Below are positions 35,549 through 63,740 of a DNA stretch of 64,000 nucleotides, piece after piece. This DNA comes from Streptomyces misionensis. Lineage in GTDB: Bacteria; Actinomycetota; Actinomycetes; Streptomycetales; Streptomycetaceae. Within the stretch, counting starts at the first letter, position 1. Each line of letters starts with the position of its first letter. Location: contig NZ_FNTD01000003.1 in NCBI RefSeq assembly GCF_900104815.1, positions 139,422 to 203,421 on the forward strand, given 5' to 3'. A program made the translations under genes and the position numbers. Under the pieces are notes generated by a model. It had not been told where the DNA came from. It ran no database searches and was given only the letters and a program-made list of their open reading frames with translations.

Positions 35549-35554
35549 CACAAG

Positions 35555-35592
35555 GCCCGTTCTCTCCACGAACCAACGCGGAGAGAACGGGC
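35555..35592. terminator. Hairpin terminator with short T-run
   Basis: GCCCGTTCTCTCC (35555-35567) pairs perfectly with 35580-35592 and is followed by CTTTCT. Confidence 0.8.
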
Positions 35593-35678
35593 CTTTCTGC
35601 GTTCAAGGGCACTCTGACGAGGCGCGCCGCAAGAGAGCAGCGCTCAACTCGGGGCGCAACTCGTTGTTCAGCTCCGGC

Positions 35679-35694
35679 GTATACCGCGGTATAC
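35679..35694. promoter_or_regulatory. Partition-site-like palindrome upstream of parA
   Basis: The perfect 16-bp palindrome GTATACCGCGGTATAC lies 118 bases before parA. An identical copy is inside parB (37206-37221). It may be parS (ParB-binding centromere) or the par operator. Confidence 0.65.
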
Positions 35695-35812: not shown

Positions 35813-36475
35813 ATGCCCTCATCTGTCCTCGTCGTGTCCACCGACCCGCAAGGGTCCACAATTTGGTGGGCCGACCGCGTCGGCGACAACCTTCCCTTCG
35901 ACTTCGCCGCTGCCCACGAAGACCCCGACAGCCTCGCCGGCCTGAAAAACCTCGGCGCGCAGATCCACGTCATTGCCAACCAGAAGGGCGGCGTCGGGAA
36001 GACCACCACGGCCGTTAACCTCGCCGCCGTCACCCACGACGTCCTCGGCCAGAGCGACGACCGGCAGCACATCTTTATCGACACCCCCGGCAGCCTGGAG
36101 AACGAGCACATCCTCGCCGCAGCTCTCGACGTCGCCGACGACGTTCTCGTCCCGATGCCGCCCGAACCGCTCGCCTTCGACCCGACCGCTCGCACCATCG
36201 AACGTGTCATCGTCCCCCGCGGTCTGCCCTACACCGTCGTCATCAACGCCTGGGACCCGCGCGACGGCAAAGCCGACCTCGAGGACACGATCGCCTACAT
36301 CGACGCGATGGGATGGCCCCGCGCGAAGACCGTCATCCGCCGCTACAAGATCCACACCCGTGCGGCATCCGAAGGCAAGGTCGTCACCCAATACGCCGAC
36401 AACGGAACCACCCTCCGCGCACGCGAGGACTACTTCCGTCTCGCCCTTGAGCGCGGCTACGGAGGGCGCCGCTGA
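35813..36475 (+). CDS. parA: ParA partition ATPase with transposed N-terminal blocks
   Basis: The 220-residue product has all ParA elements but in an unusual order. Residues 1-50 hold the A' motif (LVVSTDPQGSTIWWADRVG), residues 51-83 the Walker A strand and P-loop (IHVIANQKGGVGKTTTAVNL), and residue 84 on continues normally with Walker B (HIFIDTPGS). In standard ParA proteins Walker A comes first and A' about 30-40 residues later. Frame and start codon are preserved. ParA drives plasmid segregation by ATP-dependent DNA binding with ParB. The ATG at 35813 follows ACGGAGCACC. The stop overlaps parB. Whether this protein folds is uncertain; assembly error must be excluded. Confidence 0.85.
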   Translation: MPSSVLVVSTDPQGSTIWWADRVGDNLPFDFAAAHEDPDSLAGLKNLGAQIHVIANQKGGVGKTTTAVNLAAVTHDVLGQSDDRQHIFIDTPGSLENEHILAAALDVADDVLVPMPPEPLAFDPTARTIERVIVPRGLPYTVVINAWDPRDGKADLEDTIAYIDAMGWPRAKTVIRRYKIHTRAASEGKVVTQYADNGTTLRAREDYFRLALERGYGGRR

Positions 36476-37530
36476 TGGCAGGCAAGCGCGTATCCCTCGC
36501 CTCTCTCGCCGCAAGCAAGGTAGAGGCTGTCCCCGGGGCCAGCCGCCCCGAGCTCATCCACGTACACCCCGACCTCGTTGCCCCCACGCCTCTCAACCCG
36601 CGCCGAGCGTTCGACGAAGCCGAACTTGTCGAACTCGGTGAGGACATGCGTAACGGGCAGCTCCAGCCCTGCGTTGCCGTGAACAAGACGGCTTACCTCA
36701 AGCTGTACCCGGAGCACGCAGACCAGCTGCCCGACACCTGCCGGTACGTCATGGCCGCCGGCGAACGGCGCTGGCGCGCCGCCCGTCAAGTCGGCCTCGG
36801 CAACCTCGACCTGATGCTGCGGCATGACCTCACCGAGACTCGCGTCCGCTTCCTCGCCGCGGTCCTGTCGGAGAACGTGCAGCGCGCCAACTTCAACCCC
36901 ATCGAAGAAGCCGACGGCCTACGCGCCATGCTCGAGCTCCACGACGGCAACCAGGCGGCCGCCGCCCGCGCGATGGGCAAGTCGAAGGCGTGGTTCAACC
37001 AGCGGATCGGACTGCTGCGCCTGTCCGACGAGATGGTGCAGCTTGTCCTTCAAGGAGAGCTGACCGCGTTCCGGGAGATGCGACGCTACGCCGCTATGCC
37101 ACGGGACGAGCAATACGCCGCGTGGAAGGCAGACCAAGAACAGCCCCGCCCCAGCAAGCCCGAACCGGGTTCACCTGCGCGGGAGCCGATTGAATCCTCA
37201 GAGATGTATACCGCGGTATACACGCCCAATACCCCGGCCTCTGCGTCACAGCCCGCCGCGGACAGTCCGCCAGCACCGGACGAACGGACCGGGTCCGCCC
37301 CGGTCTCTGCACAGTCCGATACGAAGCTGGAAGCGGCGCCACCGAAGCAGACGTCCACTGTTCCCGCCCAGGCTGCTGAGTCAGCAGGACGGCAACCGGC
37401 GACGTTCCCCTACCACGACGCCGTGTTCGCGGCCCAACTCTTGGTCCGCGAGATGCCTCAAGACCAGCTTGACCTGCTGACTGACCTCTTGGCCGAACAG
37501 CGGTCCAGGAAGACAGCGGAGACCGTCTGA
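36475..37530 (+). CDS. parB: ParB partition protein
   Basis: The 351-residue protein has the ParB/Srx N-terminal domain (TPLNPRRAFDEAELVELGEDM, then MAAGERRWRAARQVG), the central ENVQRANFNPIEEADGL motif and a helix-turn-helix (QAAAARAMGKSKAWFNQRIGLL). Residues 225-310 are a Pro/Ser linker and the C-terminus a short dimerisation-type helix (QDQLDLLTDLLAEQ). ParB binds parS and activates ParA. Its ATG overlaps the parA stop. The linker codes for MYTAVYTP through a perfect parS-like palindrome. Confidence 0.9.
   Translation: MAGKRVSLASLAASKVEAVPGASRPELIHVHPDLVAPTPLNPRRAFDEAELVELGEDMRNGQLQPCVAVNKTAYLKLYPEHADQLPDTCRYVMAAGERRWRAARQVGLGNLDLMLRHDLTETRVRFLAAVLSENVQRANFNPIEEADGLRAMLELHDGNQAAAARAMGKSKAWFNQRIGLLRLSDEMVQLVLQGELTAFREMRRYAAMPRDEQYAAWKADQEQPRPSKPEPGSPAREPIESSEMYTAVYTPNTPASASQPAADSPPAPDERTGSAPVSAQSDTKLEAAPPKQTSTVPAQAAESAGRQPATFPYHDAVFAAQLLVREMPQDQLDLLTDLLAEQRSRKTAETV
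37206..37221. promoter_or_regulatory. Second partition-site-like palindrome, inside parB
   Basis: GTATACCGCGGTATAC, identical to the site upstream of parA, is embedded in the linker-coding part of parB. Confidence 0.65.
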
Positions 37531-39568: not shown

Positions 39569-39883
39569 GCCCCCGGCGTTGCCGGGGGCGGAGAGTCGAT
39601 GACGTGGTGCAGGGGGCGGCGTCTTTGGCCGCTGGGTGGGGGAGCGGTACGCAGATGTGCGCTCTTTGACGGCGGAGGCGCTTACTGGCGGTTTTCGGGG
39701 CGTGTGAGGCGGGTGTGACTGGGGGCCGCAGCGCAGCATTTGCATGGCCCTGGTGGTGACCGCCGGGCGGGCACGGTGTCCGCGGAAGCGCCCGCCGTGC
39801 GGGATCGGCCGTGAAGTTCCGGTGAACCCTCCCGCCTCACGGGATCGCGCTTTTTTGCAGTTCAGAGCCGGTGTGTGCTGTGG
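39569..39883. other. Candidate oriT/regulatory region 1 between RelE-like and MobF genes
   Basis: The divergent spacer carries the hairpin GCCCCCGGC-GTT-GCCGGGGGC (39569-39589) and, right before the relaxase start, a T-run plus TTGCAG-N-TCAGAGC and GTGTGCTGTGG (39855-39883). The same elements in the same order recur in the spacer at 52223-52484. Origins of transfer usually lie beside relaxase genes and contain hairpins close to a nick site, so the shared block is a candidate. Confidence 0.5.
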
Positions 39884-39885
39884 CG

Positions 39886-41799
39886 ATGCTGAGTATGGCG
39901 AAGATCCAGAGCCCTAACGCGGGGCGGTACTACACACGCGGAGTCGCGGTTGGCGACGGCCACCGTCCAGTCGGCCAGTCGTTGGAGGACGCCCAGGAAC
40001 TGGCCGGACTCCCGCCGGGACGGTGGCTGGGGCGTGGTCTGCGTGCGCTGGGGCTCACCGAGGGCGGCCAGGTGTCCGAGCGGCAGCTGGAGCTGCTGTT
40101 CGGCGAGGGCCGGCACCCGGACGCCGACCGCATCGAGCGCGGCCTCCTGGACGACGGCGTCGACGCGGCCACGGCCGACCGGCGGACCGTGCTGGGGCAG
40201 CCGATCGAGGAGATCGAGGCCCGCAAGCAGACTCCGCTGCTGGGCATGGACCTCACCTTCCGGCCGCAGGCGTCGCTGGTCGTGCTGTGGGCGCTGGGCG
40301 ACGCCACCGTGCGCCGGGTCATCGAGCGGGCCCACGAGCGGGCCGTCGCCAGGGTGCTGCGCTGGCTGGAGGATGAGGTTGCCGAGACCCGGTGGGCGTC
40401 AGGCCGCGGCCGTGCGAAGACGCCCGCGCTTGTGGTTGCCGCCTTCCGGCACTTCGACAACCGCGACGGACTGCCGCTGCTGCACGAGCACTGCCTGATC
40501 CTCAACCGCGTCCAGCGCCCGGGCGCCGACGGCGATCCGGTGTGGGGCGCTCTGGACACCTACCGCCTCTACCAGAACGCGGTGGCCGCCGGGACGCTCT
40601 ACACCCTCACCATGACGACCGAGGTGTGCGAGACCCTGGGACTGGCGACGGTGCCGCGCGAGGTCACGCCGGGCCTGCGTCCGGTCATGGAGATCGCCGG
40701 TGTTCCCGAGGACCTCATCAACTGGCAGGCGTCCCGCCGCCAGCGCATCGAGGACGCCCTGGAGGCGCTCACCGACCAGTACGTGAAGGACCACGGGCAC
40801 CTGCCCTCAGAGCGCGCACGCCACCAACTGGGCTGGTGGGCGGCGCAGGAGACCCGGCCCGCGAAGAAGAAGCCGAAGCCGCTCGCGCAGCTGCTCGCGT
40901 GGTGGCGCGCCTCCGCGATCCTCCGCTTCGGCCATGACCTCATCGACAGCCTCCTGGAGAAGTGCCGGGTTGCCGGGGCGTTGATCCGGGCCCGGGTGGA
41001 TCCCACCGTGGACGTGGCGCTCGCCGCCGTCGACGTCGCCGCGGTCGTCTTCACCGTGCGCGAGAAGTTCTCCCGGCGTCACATCCTGGCCGAAGCGCGC
41101 CGGCACCTGCTGGAGACGCTGCGCGGCCGCGAGTTCACCCGCGGTCTGGACGACTACATCACCGACCGGGCCCTGCTCCGGTACTCCCGCCGTCACCCGG
41201 TCACGAAGCCCGGCCGGGAAGCGCCAGCGGCGGACCGCATGACCTACACCGCCGACTTCCCGGTGCCACACCGGTGGTGGATCGCCCCCGCCGAAGGCAC
41301 ACCGCCGCGGGAGTCCAGCCGCTACGAGCGCGCCCGGGTCGCCAGCCTTGCCGTGCAGAACGCGATCCGCGACGCCCGCATCCGAGCCGCCACCGCCACC
41401 ACCACCGAGGCGACAACCTCAGCCTCCTCCGCACCCGCCGATCACCGCGACCTCGAGGGCGAGACGGCGTCCGCTCCCCACGCCGTCGACCACCCGGGCC
41501 GGGCCGCCGCCCTGACCCCGGCGCAGCGGGCCGCCGCCGAACAGGCCCACCAGCAGGCCGCGATGCCCGAGGAGTACCTGGAGGGCCGCACCACCGACCC
41601 GGCGACGTGGCTGCGCACACCAAAGAACCTGGACCGGCTCGCCGCCTACACCCGCGCCGCCGACACCCGACGCCGCGCCATGGAGGACCGGAAGACGCTG
41701 GCCGCCGGTCCGGCCAGTCCGGTCGACCAGCACCACCAGGAGCACGAGCAACAGCGCCAGCAGCCCGACCCCGGCCAAGGTCAGGGTCTGCGGCCGTGA
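39886..41799 (+). CDS. MobF-family (TrwC/TraI-type) relaxase, copy 1
   Basis: The 637-residue protein starts at ATG 39886 (MLSMAKIQSPNAGRYYTRG), the usual MobF opening with a Tyr pair (Y15-Y16) for DNA cleavage. The metal-binding three-His site appears as FRHFDNRDGLPLLHEHCL (H189, H200, H202). Relaxases nick oriT and pilot the strand to the recipient. The C-terminal 300 residues contain a long Arg/Lys-rich helical part but no helicase motifs, so it is shorter than TrwC or TraI. Upstream GTG starts at 39871 are possible. A paralogue lies at 52490-54451. Confidence 0.85.
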   Translation: MLSMAKIQSPNAGRYYTRGVAVGDGHRPVGQSLEDAQELAGLPPGRWLGRGLRALGLTEGGQVSERQLELLFGEGRHPDADRIERGLLDDGVDAATADRRTVLGQPIEEIEARKQTPLLGMDLTFRPQASLVVLWALGDATVRRVIERAHERAVARVLRWLEDEVAETRWASGRGRAKTPALVVAAFRHFDNRDGLPLLHEHCLILNRVQRPGADGDPVWGALDTYRLYQNAVAAGTLYTLTMTTEVCETLGLATVPREVTPGLRPVMEIAGVPEDLINWQASRRQRIEDALEALTDQYVKDHGHLPSERARHQLGWWAAQETRPAKKKPKPLAQLLAWWRASAILRFGHDLIDSLLEKCRVAGALIRARVDPTVDVALAAVDVAAVVFTVREKFSRRHILAEARRHLLETLRGREFTRGLDDYITDRALLRYSRRHPVTKPGREAPAADRMTYTADFPVPHRWWIAPAEGTPPRESSRYERARVASLAVQNAIRDARIRAATATTTEATTSASSAPADHRDLEGETASAPHAVDHPGRAAALTPAQRAAAEQAHQQAAMPEEYLEGRTTDPATWLRTPKNLDRLAAYTRAADTRRRAMEDRKTLAAGPASPVDQHHQEHEQQRQQPDPGQGQGLRP

Positions 41800-42265: not shown

Positions 42266-42499
42266 GCAGCCGAGCTCCGGCCCGCCCGCTGACCTCCGAG
42301 CTAGGAGATGTGGCGTCGGCCACGGACAAACCCACACGACATGGGGGTGGTCAAGAAGGAATCGGACACCTGTTGTCGCTGACCGTCAGACCGCGGACAA
42401 GGGGTGGCTCCTCACGGTGGCCCCGGCCCGCGCGCACATCCGTGTACGGGCCGGACGACTGCCGACCCGGCCCGCAGGCCGGGGGAAACCGAGGACACC

Positions 42500-43984
42500 G
42501 TGCCCACCGACCACGCACCCCGCCCCGCCCAAGCCCGCCCCACCGTGCCCGGCCCGGCACCTGCCGGCGACCTGGACCAGGTCCCGCAGTCCCCCTCCAC
42601 GGGCCCCTCCATCGCCCCCTCCGCGGCCACTTCGCCCGCCCGGCGCGTCTCCGCAGCTCAGCCCAGGAAGTCAAGGTCCCGCGACGCGTTCGACAACCCT
42701 CCTAGGCCGACACAGGTCTGGGAGCCGACCGGAGTACGAAGGAAGGAAGTGCTGAGCGCTCTGGGCATCTTCCAGCGGGCTACCGCCGATCAGCTCTGGC
42801 GGATGCTGCGCCCTGCGGACCGGCACGACCGGTGCACCAGGGACACCCTGAAGGTGTTGGAGAAGACGGGCCTGGTGCGGGAGGAGACGCGACTGGAGTC
42901 GGGACACAAGCTGTGGGTGCTCACGGAGAAGGGCCACAAGGAAGCCAAGACGCTGCTGCCGAAGTCGGTGAGGATCTCCGCGCTGCGCAAGCCCCGGGTC
43001 GATGCGGAGGGCCGGCCGGTGAAGGACGTCGGGTACGACGAACACGCCGCCGCCGTCACCTCCACCGCCGCGGTGCTCACCGGGGCTGGGTACGGCACCC
43101 CGCTGTCCTGGCAGACCGAGATCGCCCACCGGCTCCCGTACGGCTACACCCAGCACGCCGACCTGACGATGCGCGCGCCGGACGCCGGGGTTCCCGCGAT
43201 GCTCCTGGAGGTCGACCGCGTCAACGAGCCCGTCGACGACCTGGTGGACAAGCTGCGCCGCTACCACGACTGGTTCGAGCTCCTGGCGCCGAAGGCCGAC
43301 GCGAACAAGGAGAAGGCGGCCCGGCGGCAGGGTGCGGCGGTGCACGAATTCCGCCTGTGGTCACGGATCTACCCGGCGACGGGCCGCGAGGGCTACGTGC
43401 CGGTGGCGTTCGTGTTCACGGGCAAGACGGAGGCGCAGCGCGCCAGCCGGATGCGGCGCCTGGAGCAGGCCGCCCGCGCCTACTTCGCCGGCACTCCGTA
43501 CCCGTGGGCTGGGTTCACGGCCGTCGACTACCACCAGGCGGTGCCTGTGGTCGTCACCGAGCTGGAGCGGATCACCGCCCATCCGGCCGGTGCTGCGGGC
43601 AGGGTGTGGCGCAGGCTCGGGCGCGATGAGTGGCAGACCCTGCCCGAGGCCCTCGACAACCCCGACGGCGAGCGGCTGTACCGGGTGGAGCTCCGGGAGG
43701 CCCGTCGGCGCCAGGCGGAGCGCGAGGCCGCGCACCGGGAGGCGCAGCGGCCGGTGTGCACCCAGTGCGGGGCGAAGTTCACCGACGAACGCTGGCAGCA
43801 GATCAGGCAGTCCTCGTGGCACGGTGAGCGAGACGGCCTGTGCGGGCCGTGCGCGAAGGAGGCCGCCGACCGCGCGGAGGCTGAGCGCGTCGCGCGCCGC
43901 CAGGCGGAGGAAGCCGACCGCGCGGCCGCCGAAGCGGCGGCGGTGAAGCCGCGCAGCCGGTTCAGCATCAGGCGCCGCCGGTAG
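42500..43984 (+). CDS. Replication-relaxation (Replic_Relax) family protein
   Basis: The 494-residue protein has a winged helix (VLSALGIFQRATADQLWRML ... TLKVLEKTGLVREETR) at about residues 75-150 followed by a PD-(D/E)XK-like core (HADLTMRAPDAGVPAMLLEVDR, then FRLWSRIYPATGREG). This arrangement is that of the Replic_Relax family of actinobacterial plasmids, thought to act in DNA relaxation at replication or transfer. A zinc pair CTQC/CGPC and a coiled coil close the protein. GTG 42500 is used; the first 65 residues are Pro-rich. Its place after the MobF gene fits a role in DNA processing. Confidence 0.75.
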   Translation: MPTDHAPRPAQARPTVPGPAPAGDLDQVPQSPSTGPSIAPSAATSPARRVSAAQPRKSRSRDAFDNPPRPTQVWEPTGVRRKEVLSALGIFQRATADQLWRMLRPADRHDRCTRDTLKVLEKTGLVREETRLESGHKLWVLTEKGHKEAKTLLPKSVRISALRKPRVDAEGRPVKDVGYDEHAAAVTSTAAVLTGAGYGTPLSWQTEIAHRLPYGYTQHADLTMRAPDAGVPAMLLEVDRVNEPVDDLVDKLRRYHDWFELLAPKADANKEKAARRQGAAVHEFRLWSRIYPATGREGYVPVAFVFTGKTEAQRASRMRRLEQAARAYFAGTPYPWAGFTAVDYHQAVPVVVTELERITAHPAGAAGRVWRRLGRDEWQTLPEALDNPDGERLYRVELREARRRQAEREAAHREAQRPVCTQCGAKFTDERWQQIRQSSWHGERDGLCGPCAKEAADRAEAERVARRQAEEADRAAAEAAAVKPRSRFSIRRRR

Positions 43985-52222: not shown

Positions 52223-52484
52223 GCCCCCGGCGGGTGCCGGGGGCTGGGTAGGCGATCGTCCTTTGGCGGTGCTCGTTCCTTGGCGCGTGGTGATGCTCAG
52301 TGGCGCTTGTTGGTGTCGGCCGGGTCGGGATGTGCGGGTTGCCGGAGAGCGATGACATTCGCTTTCGGCCTGGGGCCGCTTCCCGCCTGGCGGGCGCCTG
52401 AGAGGAAAGTTCGGCCACTGCTCCCGCCTGGCGGGACGTGGTGCTGATCGGCCTTTTCTTGCAGGTCAGAGCAGTGTGCTGTGG
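52223..52484. other. Candidate oriT/regulatory region 2 between RelE-like and MobF genes
   Basis: The spacer repeats the design of region 1: hairpin GCCCCCGGC-GGGT-GCCGGGGGC (52223-52244), CCCGCC(T)GGCGGG inverted repeats, a T-run and TTGCAG-N-TCAGAGC followed by GTGTGCTGTGG (52459-52484) just before the relaxase ATG. Conservation of these parts between otherwise diverged spacers suggests function. Confidence 0.5.
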
Positions 52485-52489
52485 TCCGC

Positions 52490-54451
52490 ATGACAGTGGA
52501 TATCAGGGTCATGCGGGCCGGTCAGATGTACCGCTACTACCTGCGCGAGACCGTGGTCGGCGACGGCCGCCGCCCGGCCCGCACGCCGCTGCGCGCCGCC
52601 CAGGAGCAAGCCGGTGTCCCGGCCGGCCGCTGGATGGGCCGGGGACTTGCCGCGCTCGGACTCGCGCCGGGTGAGGAAGCCACCGAGGCGCAGCTGCGGA
52701 ACCTGTTCGGCGAGCGCGGCCGCCACCCGTACGCGGACCGGATCGAGGCCGAGCGGCTCGCCGCGGGCGAGTCGGCGAAGAAGGCGTTCAAGGCCGGCGC
52801 CCTCGGACGCCGGGTGACAGTCACCGGGGTCGACTTCGTGTTCCGGCCGCAGCCGACGATCTACCTCCTGTGGGCGCTGGGGGATGAGGAAACCCGTCTG
52901 GTGATCGAGGCCGCGCACGAGTACGCGATCGAGCGGGTACTGGAGTGGATCGAGGACGAGGTCGCGGTGATCCGGTACGGCAAGGACGGCATCTACCGGG
53001 TGCGGCCGCCCGGCGGTCTGGTCGCCGCCCGCTTCCGCCACTACGAGGCGCGCTCCGGGCGGCCGTTGCTGCATGACCATCTGCTTCTGTCCGTGAAGGG
53101 GCAGCGTCTGGACGGGAAGTGGGGTTCGATCCACACCACGGCCCTGCACGAGAACACCGTGGCGGCCTCCGCGCTCTACAACGAGATCGTGGCCGCTGAG
53201 GTCTGCGAGGAGCTGGGGCTGGCGACCGAGCCGCGCACCGTCACCCCGGGGCGCCGACCGGTGATGGAGATCGCCGGGGTGCCCCACGAGCTGATCCGCT
53301 GGACCGCCCGGCGCAGTGACCAGATCGCCGCCTGCCTGACCGAGCTGGAGCACGAGTACGTCACCGCCGTCGACGACGACGGCGAGCTGCGGTTCCTGCC
53401 CGTGGTCTCCGAGCGGGCCCGCGCCAAGATGAACCAGATCGCTGCCCGCAAGACCCGCTCGCCCAAGCAGAAGACCCGGCCGCTCGCGCAGCTGCGCGCG
53501 TGGTGGAAGGTGAGCGCGATCCTCACCTCCGGGGCTGCCGCCGACGTCATCAACTCCCTCCTCGAGCACGCCCGCGCCGCAGCTGCGGGGATCCGGGCCC
53601 GGGTCGCCGCCGTGGTCGACATAGCGCTGGCAGCCGTCGACGTCACCGCGACCGTGTTCGTGATGAACGACGGCGGCCACTTCCACCGCCGGCACCTACT
53701 TGCTGAAGCCCGCCGCCATCTCGCCCTGGTCCTGCGCGGCCGCCGCCGCGACCCCGGCCTGGACGAGGAGATCGTGGCCGCCGCCATCTCCACCCACTGC
53801 CTGGACATCAGCGAGCCGAAGACCGTGCGAGGCCTGGAGGCCGGCTACCGCCTCTACACCGCCCGGTGGTCCCTGTCCGACCTCCCCGCCCGCCGCCCAC
53901 CCACCCTGGCGCCCGACCCGGCGCGGCAACCCCCGGCCGATCCCGGCGAGTCGGCCGCGCCCCGGCCCCAGGGCCAGGACGCGGGGGAGTGGGAGATCCC
54001 CCGCATCCCGCTCCCGTACGAGCGCGCCGTCCTCGCCGGCGCGGTGGTGCGCGACAAGCTGCGCACCACCGCCTCCACCGCCGTGCGGGGCCGGGCCGGC
54101 GACGTCGTCGCCCATCAGCAGGCGGCGATGCCCGAGCAACTGCTCGCGCCCCCGGTCGCCGAAGTCGAGCACGACGACCAGGAGCCGGAAACCGGGCGCG
54201 GGGAGGCGATCGACATGACCGCGCTGCGGGCCTTGCGGAAGTCCCGCACGGACGTGGAAGCCCTCGATCTCACCGCCGACCGACTGCGCCGCCTCCAAGA
54301 TGCGTTCGCCAAGGCGGGTGACGACTCCCGCGTCCGCGCGAAACGCAACACCGTCCAGGCCGACGACACTGGCCCGGTGCGCCCGTACGGCCAGCAGGCG
54401 TACCGCCCGCAGGAGCCCGGATCGCACCGCGGCCGGGAGGCCGGCCACTGA
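52490..54451 (+). CDS. MobF-family relaxase, copy 2
   Basis: The 653-residue protein (ATG 52490, MTVDIRVMRAGQMYRYYLRE) has the Tyr pair (Y16-Y17) and a His triad within FRHYEARSGRPLLHDHLL (H184, H195, H197). It aligns with copy 1 throughout (for example GRWMGRGLAALGLAPG; FRPQPTIYLLWALGD; GRRPVMEIAGVPHELI). The C-terminal half has charged helices and no helicase motifs. Two intact, diverged relaxases on one replicon suggest either separate oriT specificities or fusion of two plasmids. The residues before MTVD (a GTG at 52481) are less likely to be used. Confidence 0.85.
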   Translation: MTVDIRVMRAGQMYRYYLRETVVGDGRRPARTPLRAAQEQAGVPAGRWMGRGLAALGLAPGEEATEAQLRNLFGERGRHPYADRIEAERLAAGESAKKAFKAGALGRRVTVTGVDFVFRPQPTIYLLWALGDEETRLVIEAAHEYAIERVLEWIEDEVAVIRYGKDGIYRVRPPGGLVAARFRHYEARSGRPLLHDHLLLSVKGQRLDGKWGSIHTTALHENTVAASALYNEIVAAEVCEELGLATEPRTVTPGRRPVMEIAGVPHELIRWTARRSDQIAACLTELEHEYVTAVDDDGELRFLPVVSERARAKMNQIAARKTRSPKQKTRPLAQLRAWWKVSAILTSGAAADVINSLLEHARAAAAGIRARVAAVVDIALAAVDVTATVFVMNDGGHFHRRHLLAEARRHLALVLRGRRRDPGLDEEIVAAAISTHCLDISEPKTVRGLEAGYRLYTARWSLSDLPARRPPTLAPDPARQPPADPGESAAPRPQGQDAGEWEIPRIPLPYERAVLAGAVVRDKLRTTASTAVRGRAGDVVAHQQAAMPEQLLAPPVAEVEHDDQEPETGRGEAIDMTALRALRKSRTDVEALDLTADRLRRLQDAFAKAGDDSRVRAKRNTVQADDTGPVRPYGQQAYRPQEPGSHRGREAGH

Positions 54452-60713: not shown

Positions 60714-60845
60714 CTACGCCCCGGTGAAGCGGACTTGATCGGCCGTCCAGTCGCCCAGCCGCTGCCACGGGCGCAGTCGCCCGAGCAGATAGCCGGCCGC
60801 GAGCGCGGCGGCCGCGGTGACGACGACGCCCACGATCAGGACCAC
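60714..60845 (-). CDS. Small membrane protein coupled to the helicase gene (43 aa)
   Basis: A GTG at 60845-60843, inside the last codons of the helicase, opens VVLIVGVVVTAAAALAAGYL followed by LGRLRPWQRLGDWTADQVRF and a TAG. The 10-base overlap with the helicase stop makes translational coupling likely. One membrane helix plus a basic tail could anchor something near the replicon end. No family recognised. Confidence 0.55.
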   Translation of the reverse strand: MVLIVGVVVTAAAALAAGYLLGRLRPWQRLGDWTADQVRFTGA

Positions 60846-63361
60846 CGCATTCCGATCGCGGACAGCAGCTCCATCCGCTCCGGCGTCAGTGTCGCCGCCC
60901 GGGAGCGCTGGTTCCCGATCCAGGCGCCCAGCTTGTGCTCCCGCTCCTCCTGGTCCTCGCCGCCGACGATCCGCTCGACGTGCTTCCTGGGGACCTGGAG
61001 GTGTCCCTCGCGCTCGTAGAACTGGCGGGCGGCCTCGTAGTGCATGGCCCACTTGTCGGCCTGCGTACGGCGCGGCTTCGGCTTCTCGTCCTCGCTCGCG
61101 GGTGTGATGCCGAGGACCTGCTCGCACAGCCACTGCTGGACGGTGGTGAGCTGGTCCCAGCCGAGCCGGACCGACTGCACCCACCGGCCGAGGTCCTCGC
61201 CCTGGCGCACGACGTCGCCCGTCTCGGTGGGCAGCGCCTCACCGGCGTCCAGGTGCATCCGCACGAGGTGGAAGCACCGCTGCCACGTCACCGGCCAGCT
61301 CGGGCACCAGGCGGGGTCGATGTCCTCCAGCTGCTCGCGCCGTTCGTCCGACAGGGCCCCGGCCGACGACTCCACCGGCAGCCCCTCGGCACGCCGCTGC
61401 TCGATCTCCTGCGCCTTGCGGGCGGCGGCCCGCGCGTTCTTCAGAAAGATGCCCACCCGGTGCCCCTGGAACGTGGCGTCCAGCGGGGCCAGGAGGTGGC
61501 CGTGTTCGGCCGCCCACCCGCGCGCGGCCGCGAGGCCCTCCTCCCACGCGACGTCGTAGTGCGACCAGATCATGCCGAGCTTCTCCAGTTGCGCGACGCG
61601 GTCCTCGTCCATGTCGCCGCGGGCGTAGAACCGGCGAGCGTCGGCGGTCCACTGCCCCAGCGGGAACCCGGCGAGCGAGGCCGGCCACCCCTCGCCCTCC
61701 GCCTCCTGGTCGTCGACGGCGGGCACGCGGAACGTGAACGGCACCTTCAAGTCGCCGTGCTCGCGGGCGTAGATGACGGCGGCCTCCACGCCGCGCCGCC
61801 AGTGCTCGTGCTCCGGGTTGAGCACGCGCAGGTTGATGAACGCGGCGAGCGCGGCCGGGTCACGGGGCGTGGAGAACTTCAGCAGGGCCTTGGCAGGGGC
61901 GCTCACGCCTCCGGAGCCCTCGCCGCTCCCGCCCGTGCTCTTCCCGCCCTCGTCCTTGCTGACGGGCTTGTAGCGGCTCGGCGCCTGCTGCTCCGCAAGG
62001 CTTTCCACGATCCGCGCGTCGTGCGCCCGCAACGCCTCCAACAGCTTCGCCAGCCCGCCGAACGCCCGCGAGGTCAGCATGTTGTCCGCCGTCTCGCCCG
62101 GCCCGAGCAGCACCGGCACCACGAGCGAGGCCACCTTGCCCTCGCCGGGCTGCATCCGCAGCGCCCGGCCCACGGCCTGGACCAGGTCCGGCATCGAGCC
62201 GCGCACGTCGGCCCAGTACACGGAGTCGCAGTTCTTGGTGTCGACGCCCTCGCCCAGCACCTTCACCGAGGACAGGAAGCACTTCTCCACGACGGTGCCG
62301 TCCGCAGCGATCCCGGCCGCGAACTCCCCGAGCAGCCGGCGGCGGTGGAGCGGCTTGTGGTCGCCGCACAGCCAGTTGGCCCAGATCGTCTTGGGGTACA
62401 GCTCGGGGTCGGCGGCGTGCAGCTGCGCGGCGACGTCGGGGAGGCCGGCCGCGAACGCTTCGGCCTCCTTGACGACGTGGTGGAAGACGAGCGTGCGCCT
62501 AAAGCCCTCCTCCGCCGACGCCTTCACCAGGGCGGTCTGGAGCGCGGCGAGCCGGGCCCCGCGGACCTCTGCCGAGCGGCTTTCGGCGCCCAGGAGCTGC
62601 GCGGCCTGGAGCGCGGTGTCGGTGACGTCCACGCAGACGACCTGGTAGGGGGCACAGATTCCCCGGTCGATGGCCTCCGAGAGGGTCAGGGTGAAGCAGC
62701 GGCTGCCGAAGGGGCCCTCAGGGTCGTCTTCCATGCTCGCGACCAGCTCGCCCGGTGCGCCGGCCCCGTCCTCGTCTCCGAGCTGCCACAGCCGGGGCGT
62801 GGCCGTCATGTAGAGGCGGCGCAGGGACGGGATCTTCTGGTTGTCGTGGACGACCGCCCACGGCTTCCCGATCCGGCCCGAAACGCGGTGGGCTTCGTCC
62901 ACGACGATCAGATCCCAAGCCGCGAGGCCCCCGGCGTGCGCCCGCTCCAGCGTGCCCAGACCGAGGCTGGCGTACGTGGCGAACACGGTGACCTTGTCCA
63001 GGCCCCGCGTCCACTCCACCAGCTCGTCCACGTCCGTGGTGTTGGGGAAAGACACCTCCTCACCCCGCAGCGAGGACACCCCGATCATCGGCCCCCGGCG
63101 GCCTCCCTCACGCCACGCGGCCTCGGTCTGGGCGAGCAGGTCCAGCGAGGGCACGAGCACCAGCACACGGCCCGCGTGGAGCTCCTCCGCGCTGCGGACC
63201 GCCACCCTGGTCTTCCCGGACCCGGTCGCCATGATCACCTGCGTTCGAAGCCCTCGTTCGGGCACAAGTGATCTTGCAGGCAATTCGAGGGCGCGCACGA
63301 CCGCATCAATGGCTTCTCGCTGGACTGCCTCGCGCTGGTCAACGCGGTCTGTGCTCGACAT
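60836..63361 (-). CDS. Telomere-proximal DEAH-box helicase with helicase-associated domains
   Basis: The 841-residue protein starts at ATG 63361 with GGAGAAGG upstream. It has ATGSGKTRVAV (Walker A, about 45-54), VVDEAHR (DEAH at 155-158), MTATP (185-189) and QAVGRALRM (motif VI), a full superfamily 2 helicase core. The C-terminal half shows helicase-associated repeats (HWRRGVEAAVIYAREHGDLK; WEEGLAAARGWAAEHGHLLA; WAMHYEAARQFYEREGHLQV). Genes like this are found at the tips of Streptomyces linear chromosomes and plasmids (the ttrA type, linked to conjugal transfer). A fragment of a close relative lies at 37982-38110. Confidence 0.85.
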   Translation of the reverse strand: MSSTDRVDQREAVQREAIDAVVRALELPARSLVPERGLRTQVIMATGSGKTRVAVRSAEELHAGRVLVLVPSLDLLAQTEAAWREGGRRGPMIGVSSLRGEEVSFPNTTDVDELVEWTRGLDKVTVFATYASLGLGTLERAHAGGLAAWDLIVVDEAHRVSGRIGKPWAVVHDNQKIPSLRRLYMTATPRLWQLGDEDGAGAPGELVASMEDDPEGPFGSRCFTLTLSEAIDRGICAPYQVVCVDVTDTALQAAQLLGAESRSAEVRGARLAALQTALVKASAEEGFRRTLVFHHVVKEAEAFAAGLPDVAAQLHAADPELYPKTIWANWLCGDHKPLHRRRLLGEFAAGIAADGTVVEKCFLSSVKVLGEGVDTKNCDSVYWADVRGSMPDLVQAVGRALRMQPGEGKVASLVVPVLLGPGETADNMLTSRAFGGLAKLLEALRAHDARIVESLAEQQAPSRYKPVSKDEGGKSTGGSGEGSGGVSAPAKALLKFSTPRDPAALAAFINLRVLNPEHEHWRRGVEAAVIYAREHGDLKVPFTFRVPAVDDQEAEGEGWPASLAGFPLGQWTADARRFYARGDMDEDRVAQLEKLGMIWSHYDVAWEEGLAAARGWAAEHGHLLAPLDATFQGHRVGIFLKNARAAARKAQEIEQRRAEGLPVESSAGALSDERREQLEDIDPAWCPSWPVTWQRCFHLVRMHLDAGEALPTETGDVVRQGEDLGRWVQSVRLGWDQLTTVQQWLCEQVLGITPASEDEKPKPRRTQADKWAMHYEAARQFYEREGHLQVPRKHVERIVGGEDQEEREHKLGAWIGNQRSRAATLTPERMELLSAIGMRWS

Positions 63362-63740
63362 ATTCGCCTGCCTTCTCCTGGGGTGTCGCCCGGTCGATTC
63401 GAGCGGCGGAAAACGGGAAACCTGCACGTAGAAGAGCCTTGAGGGCTACGGTTGGACGGATGCGATCGGCTGGTGGCTTGGCTCCACTGGAGCACCGGCA
63501 AGGCCGGGGGACGGATCTCGATATCGCTCCGGAGGAGTCCGGGTGGTGTGATCTGAGTCCATAGCTTATCTCGACTCCAAAAATGAAGCACACAGAATCG
63601 CGAGATTCCCTCTAACGTGGCCGAAAGCTGCTAGTCTTGCCTTATCGTTAGCCAATCCAACGTCTTGACGCCCCCTCAGCCCCCGCTCCCTTTCTGCGGG
63701 CGATCGACCCCGCACCCGTCACTCTCCCGACGGCCCGTCA
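63362..63740. other. Subtelomeric spacer and promoter region of the helicase gene
   Basis: This is the least GC-rich stretch near the end (TATCTCGACTCCAAAAATGA; TGCCTTATCGTTAGCCAATC) and contains no credible gene. It should hold the helicase promoter and separates it from the palindromic end. Confidence 0.5.

Follow-up and report, generated by a model that had tools for sequence, protein, structure and literature searches.

Partition ATPases of the ParA family usually carry an A' motif of the form D-x-D-P-Q, and the standard order of their motifs is Walker A, A', Walker B. Their deviant Walker A motif, KGGxxK[S/T], contains a signature lysine (PMC9178275, available text), and the main text of PMC13245405 describes the ATP-binding residues as being kept in Streptomyces plasmid ParAs. 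The subject of the present analysis is the parA gene in a stretch of Streptomyces misionensis DNA (the window), which comprises the last 64,000 bases of the 203,421-base contig C3 of an 8.47-Mb genome in five contigs. In the encoded protein, the window ParA, the P-loop block and the A' block are exchanged along the chain, and the probability that it is a real, permuted, and functional ParA is estimated at about 0.9.

Both by sequence and by structure, the closest relatives of the window ParA are ParAs. The best structural matches in the Protein Data Bank (PDB) are to ParF, the ParA of TP228 (4dzz, 5u1g), which is likewise a small ParA without an N-terminal helix-turn-helix (HTH) but has the normal block order. 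ParF pairs with ParG and not with a ParB of the ParB_N/HTH type. The best match in the viral structure library BFVD (E 4.8e-4, TMq 0.39) was uninformative. Among GTPases of the TRAFAC class, the whole G domain is permuted in RsgA and RbgA, whereas the window ParA, a SIMIBI ATPase, displays a swap of two neighboring units. The circularly permuted GTPases (RsgA/YloQ and RbgA/YlqF) are, according to the available part of PMC6912228, an earlier example of a permuted P-loop NTPase that works. The ParAs of ZL12 (pZL12.17c), pSLE1, and pSAM1, with 66–99% identity to the window ParA, are already permuted in the same way; in the available part of PMC4487206 they are annotated plainly as ParA, with the permutation unmentioned. 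No report of a permuted ParA was found in the open-access literature searched (titles and beginnings of abstracts among the matches listed). In the accessible portions of the papers that deal with permutation, the term refers to phage genome ends (PMC3585329), a plasmid map (PMC5870499), methylases (PMC10853773), Rossmann folds (PMC7758060), or GTPases (PMC6912228), and never to ParA; the main text of PMC13245405 contains no word beginning with "permut".

The window ParA carries MPSSVLVVSTDPQGSTIWWADRV at its N-terminus, while IANQKGGVGKTTT is not reached until residue 54 and is followed by HIFIDTPG, in which FIDTPG around D90 represents Walker B. With the A' motif STDPQGS at residues 9–15 and the Walker A motif KGGVGKTT at residues 58–65, the motifs follow each other in the order A', Walker A, Walker B, and because of this departure from the ParA norm the protein is regarded as a permuted variant rather than a standard member of the family. 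The original prediction, made from the bare DNA sequence, had placed an A' segment ahead of the P-loop within an intact frame of 220 codons, with gene start and parB overlap retained, and this is what the open reading frame (ORF) and the motif positions reveal (Table 1); the parA stop codon TGA (36473–36475) and the ATG of parB overlap by one base (TGATGG). The block limits first proposed (2–50 and 51–83) agree with those derived from relatives (4–48 and 49–84). In a phmmer comparison with the Synechocystis ParA 3cwq, query residues 52–73 align with chain residues 3–24, residues 4–30 with 30–54 (a stretch that by itself is not significant), and residues 84–200 with 68–182. The three blocks of the ten closest among 38 P-loop-first rows each match the window ParA separately at 64–75% identity. 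Since the 3cwq stretches align in exchanged order and the canonical rows match block by block, chance likeness is excluded.

The swap goes unseen, because profile libraries pick up either a P-loop stretch of 23 residues or the C-terminal part only, and the records say simply ParA. The Pfam families AAA_31 and CbiA exceed the cut-off on the window ParA at residues 51–73 and 53–73 only; the NCBIfam model NF041546 (ParA family partition ATPase) scores 72.4 bits, below its curated cut-off of 180, with the best stretch at 81–199; and PHROG 164 (ParA-like) fits best on residues 81–211. Modeling of the fold, suggested originally as a check, yielded a confident AlphaFold model (pTM 0.90), in which the A' block forms a strand (5–9), a helix (15–26), a strand (30–33), and a helix (38–47), and the P-loop block a strand (50–54) and a helix (63–78). 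The three-dimensional position of the A' strand would be the same as in the canonical sheet.

The exchanged order is shared by a whole group of proteins. A search of 5.8 billion proteins, in which 8000 candidates were scored, returned 1032 relatives with E values up to 0.001, the best 120 of which were examined. One-piece alignments cover 95–100% of the query in 118 of these nearest relatives listed and 75–76% in two, and DPQ precedes the P-loop in 119 of them, the exception, P0051, being a fragment whose sequence begins at the P-loop. The conjecture of a naturally permuted ParA is thus supported by a family of actinobacterial plasmid and phage-plasmid proteins with the same order throughout. 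Source names among the listed relatives include Streptomyces, Kitasatospora, Embleya, Yinghuangia, Actinomadura, Actinoallomurus, Actinocorallia, Streptosporangiaceae, and one Leifsonia, and the replicons identified by name are S. ambofaciens pSAM1, S. leeuwenhoekii pSLE1, Streptomyces sp. FR1 pFRL2, and the phage-plasmid ZL12. Among 96 rows of ORFs with a deviant Walker A motif (94 different) that were read for block order, 25 are permuted, ZL12 and pSAM1 included, and 71 are P-loop first (46 by script, 25 by eye); loci L007–L086, from a contig scan whose listed matches were mostly P-loop stretches, were excluded as evidence.

At the genome level, a permuted parA was found in 12 of 392 genomes of the genus, 12 of 200 of the family, 2 of 394 of the class, and 1 of 396 of the phylum, where the samples overlap, the window's own genome is part of each, and only some candidates per genome were scored; counted were one-piece matches to the whole query with at least 66% identity and individually confirmed order. 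Twelve weak or partial matches, namely two from the phylum sample (28% and 31%), nine from the genus and family samples, and the other relative in the window's own genome, were all P-loop first when read. In a plasmid collection searched by tblastn, 34 of 253 matching records gave a one-piece match over 98–100% of the query with at least 63% identity, the order having been read in four of the 34; all are from Streptomyces, Kitasatospora, or Embleya and range from 65 kb to 3.1 Mb. Of the 80 viral loci retained, nine are permuted; their contigs are 71–93 kb long, and four of these contigs are probably the same elements as plasmid records of identical size. The permuted form is thus carried by phage-plasmids and by other plasmids alike; the window's contig has relaxase ORFs, listed below. 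Both block orders occur in at least five genomes (the window's own, G536, G743, G1149, and G1268); in the window's genome they coexist because a relative on a 15,918-base contig (L273, G000:C1:11000-15000; 51% identity over residues 96–218) is canonical, with the P-loop first.

The window ParA most likely functions as an ordinary ParA motor whose chain connections have been rewired. A role as motor of a ParABS system is to be expected from the conserved Walker A, A', and Walker B residues, together with the overlapping parB and the palindromes described below. KGGVGKTT (58–65), D11, P12, and Q13 of A', and D90 and P92 of Walker B are invariant in all 44 aligned members. The substitution pattern indicates that parA is under purifying selection in all three blocks: the window gene differs from L116 by 33 synonymous and no non-synonymous changes, dN/dS is 0.00–0.11 in nine of 12 gene pairs, and in seven pairs including the window parA, dN is smaller than dS in each block. 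A protein whose motor was broken by the permutation, and which was retained for regulation through binding of DNA or ParB, is an unlikely alternative; it would be in keeping with activity data having been seen for no member, but a non-ATPase has no need of the deviant Walker A residues, the D-P-Q of A', and the Walker B aspartate, which are nevertheless invariant.

The mechanistic steps behind the preferred reading, a functional motor, are less certain. The β2-α2-β3-α3 unit (A' block) now precedes β1-α1 (P-loop block), from where the chain enters the Walker B strand. If, as we infer, the exchanged units keep their usual positions once the sheet is folded, the ATP site would be rebuilt from the same parts. 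ATP binding, dimerization, and DNA binding would then proceed as in other ParAs, the ATPase would be stimulated by the neighboring ParB at palindromic parS sites, and plasmid copies would be moved apart.

Concerning the origin of the swap, the closest P-loop-first proteins found are Micromonospora-type ParAs and their kin. In a comparison of the individual blocks, P0240, P0234, and P0245 are the nearest of 38 canonical rows, with about 71% identity; for P0245 the identities are 27/36 in the P block, 33/45 in the A' block, and 93/136 in the C block, while plain BLASTP with this protein leaves a 34-residue gap over residues 54–87, the P-loop block. These three and the Micromonospora proteins P0121 and P0122 have the same motifs as the window ParA at 64–71% block-by-block identity, but they place the P-loop block first and the A' block second, and the canonical sisters have 228–247 amino acids as against 220. 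The genes of P0121 and P0122 sit on plasmids beside parB, as does the window parA. A second protein search, starting from a Micromonospora ParA, gave P-loop-first proteins only among the best 120 of 1457 (111 by script and nine by eye, one of the latter truncated inside the P-loop). In the Micromonosporaceae plasmid ParAs L183 and L184, which are close canonical relatives, a long loop separates the P-loop helix from the A' strand.

In a tree of 70 rows, the permuted rows form one side of a branch (99/59); 26 ORFs (24 distant ParAs, L089, and L156) were left out of it because the block parser failed to cut them. The densest tree, of 77 rows and rooted with an outgroup, was obtained after addition of the Micromonospora-type sisters and unites 39 permuted rows in one clade among 38 canonical rows (94/90; 94% of 200 bootstrap trees). 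Its input consisted of 36 of 119 permuted and 26 of 120 canonical proteins, picked by hand, plus 15 other rows; canonical P0163, P0175, P0203, P0221, and P0223 were left out as uncuttable by the parser, and with one row misplaced the outgroup is not one side of a branch. The permuted rows are nested in this tree inside P-loop-first ParAs, with which they share common ancestry, indicating that the swapped order is derived and probably arose once, albeit a single origin depended on sampling. The permuted rows compared share two junctions, from the end of α3 to the P-loop strand and from the end of α1 to the Walker B strand. The simplest history would start from a canonical parA of an actinobacterial plasmid, with one tandem duplication of the P-loop and A' segment; the outer copies, namely the first of the two P-loop blocks and the second of the two A' blocks, would then have been lost. 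In this family, a similar x-H-V pattern often marks the start of both the P-loop strand and the Walker B strand, and it may be guessed that these shared starts helped to form the joint.

Alternatively, A' and P-loop blocks from different ParA genes could have been fused, recombination between plasmid par loci being plausible and another, canonical relative being present in the same genome; this is quite improbable, as the canonical rows that best match the P, A', and C blocks, each compared separately in pairwise fashion, belong to one group and are of like identity. The further option left by the original prediction, an assembly or local recombination artefact hiding a gene in standard order, has nothing in its favor except the oddity of the order and is excluded, since A' comes first in 119 of the 120 nearest listed proteins, which derive from several sources, in the 25 directly read loci, and in the 12 genomes of the genus, the plasmid records (read in four), and the nine viral contigs. 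Synonymous differences between the copies show that they are not one copied error.

Several points weigh against a functional permuted ParA of single origin. The case for it is built on sequence and a predicted fold, the position of the A' strand within the sheet being a presumed one. The first aspartate of the A' motif is serine in the window ParA, as also in its closest canonical relatives, and dN/dS rises to 0.20–0.32 in the three deepest pairs. In a 75-row tree, obtained after adding close canonical relatives and dropping L091, L159, L160, L161, and L162, a single permuted clade appears in 48% of bootstrap trees, and with a p-AU of 0.507 it is neither shown nor rejected. Tandem duplication and loss, as originally suggested, fits the block structure, but an intermediate with two P-loops was encountered in none of 258 ORFs and none of 125 proteins. 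Neither was a P-loop remnant found in the 800 bases upstream of the window parA, where the best ungapped match to the P-loop word scores 10, less than each of the five highest of 40 base-shuffles (20–22); upstream of 11 other permuted loci the P-loop word scores are 11–19, without shuffle control (581 bases for L117).

Table 1. Features of the parA locus (positions within the window)
Feature	Position	Strand	Remarks
Palindrome GTATACCGCGGTATAC, putative parS	35679..35694		perfect, 16 bases; begins 134 bases before parA start
parA (whole gene, stop included)	35813..36475	+	ATG start; 220 amino acids; block-permuted ParA-family ATPase
A' block	35822..35956	+	residues 4–48; follows the P-loop block in canonical ParA
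P-loop (deviant Walker A) block	35957..36064	+	residues 49–84; N-terminal in canonical ParA
C block	36065..36472	+	residues 85–220; Walker B strand (86–90) and remainder in normal order
parB	36475..37530	+	351 amino acids; ParB_N and HTH_ParB; overlapping partner gene adjoining parA
Second copy of GTATACCGCGGTATAC, putative parS	37206..37221		inside 3' part of parB

The two palindromes of Table 1 are putative parS sites. A third exact copy is absent from the whole genome, the number of copies expected in shuffles of the window has a mean of 0.00, and a slightly looser form is found in six of 12 permuted loci examined, the window's own included. On SCP1, too, there are parS sites both within the par operon and around it, as stated in the main text of PMC13245405. 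Upstream of parA, a terminator-like inverted repeat is located at 35552–35595 (19 bases, 95% complementary, loop of 6). Contig C3 is a plasmid contig with two ORFs for TrwC-type relaxases (39871–41799 and 52481–54451) and a Replic_Relax ORF (42404–43984); close to its right end, a helicase ORF (60836–63427) includes three helicase-associated (HA) domain stretches.

Summarizing, two core units of a P-loop ATPase appear to have traded places naturally in the window ParA, probably in a single event, and to be kept in the new arrangement by selection. With canonical sisters available at about 71% identity, the protein amounts to an experiment of nature on the chain connections required by a ParA motor, and it illustrates how the core of a nucleotide-binding protein can be rewired.
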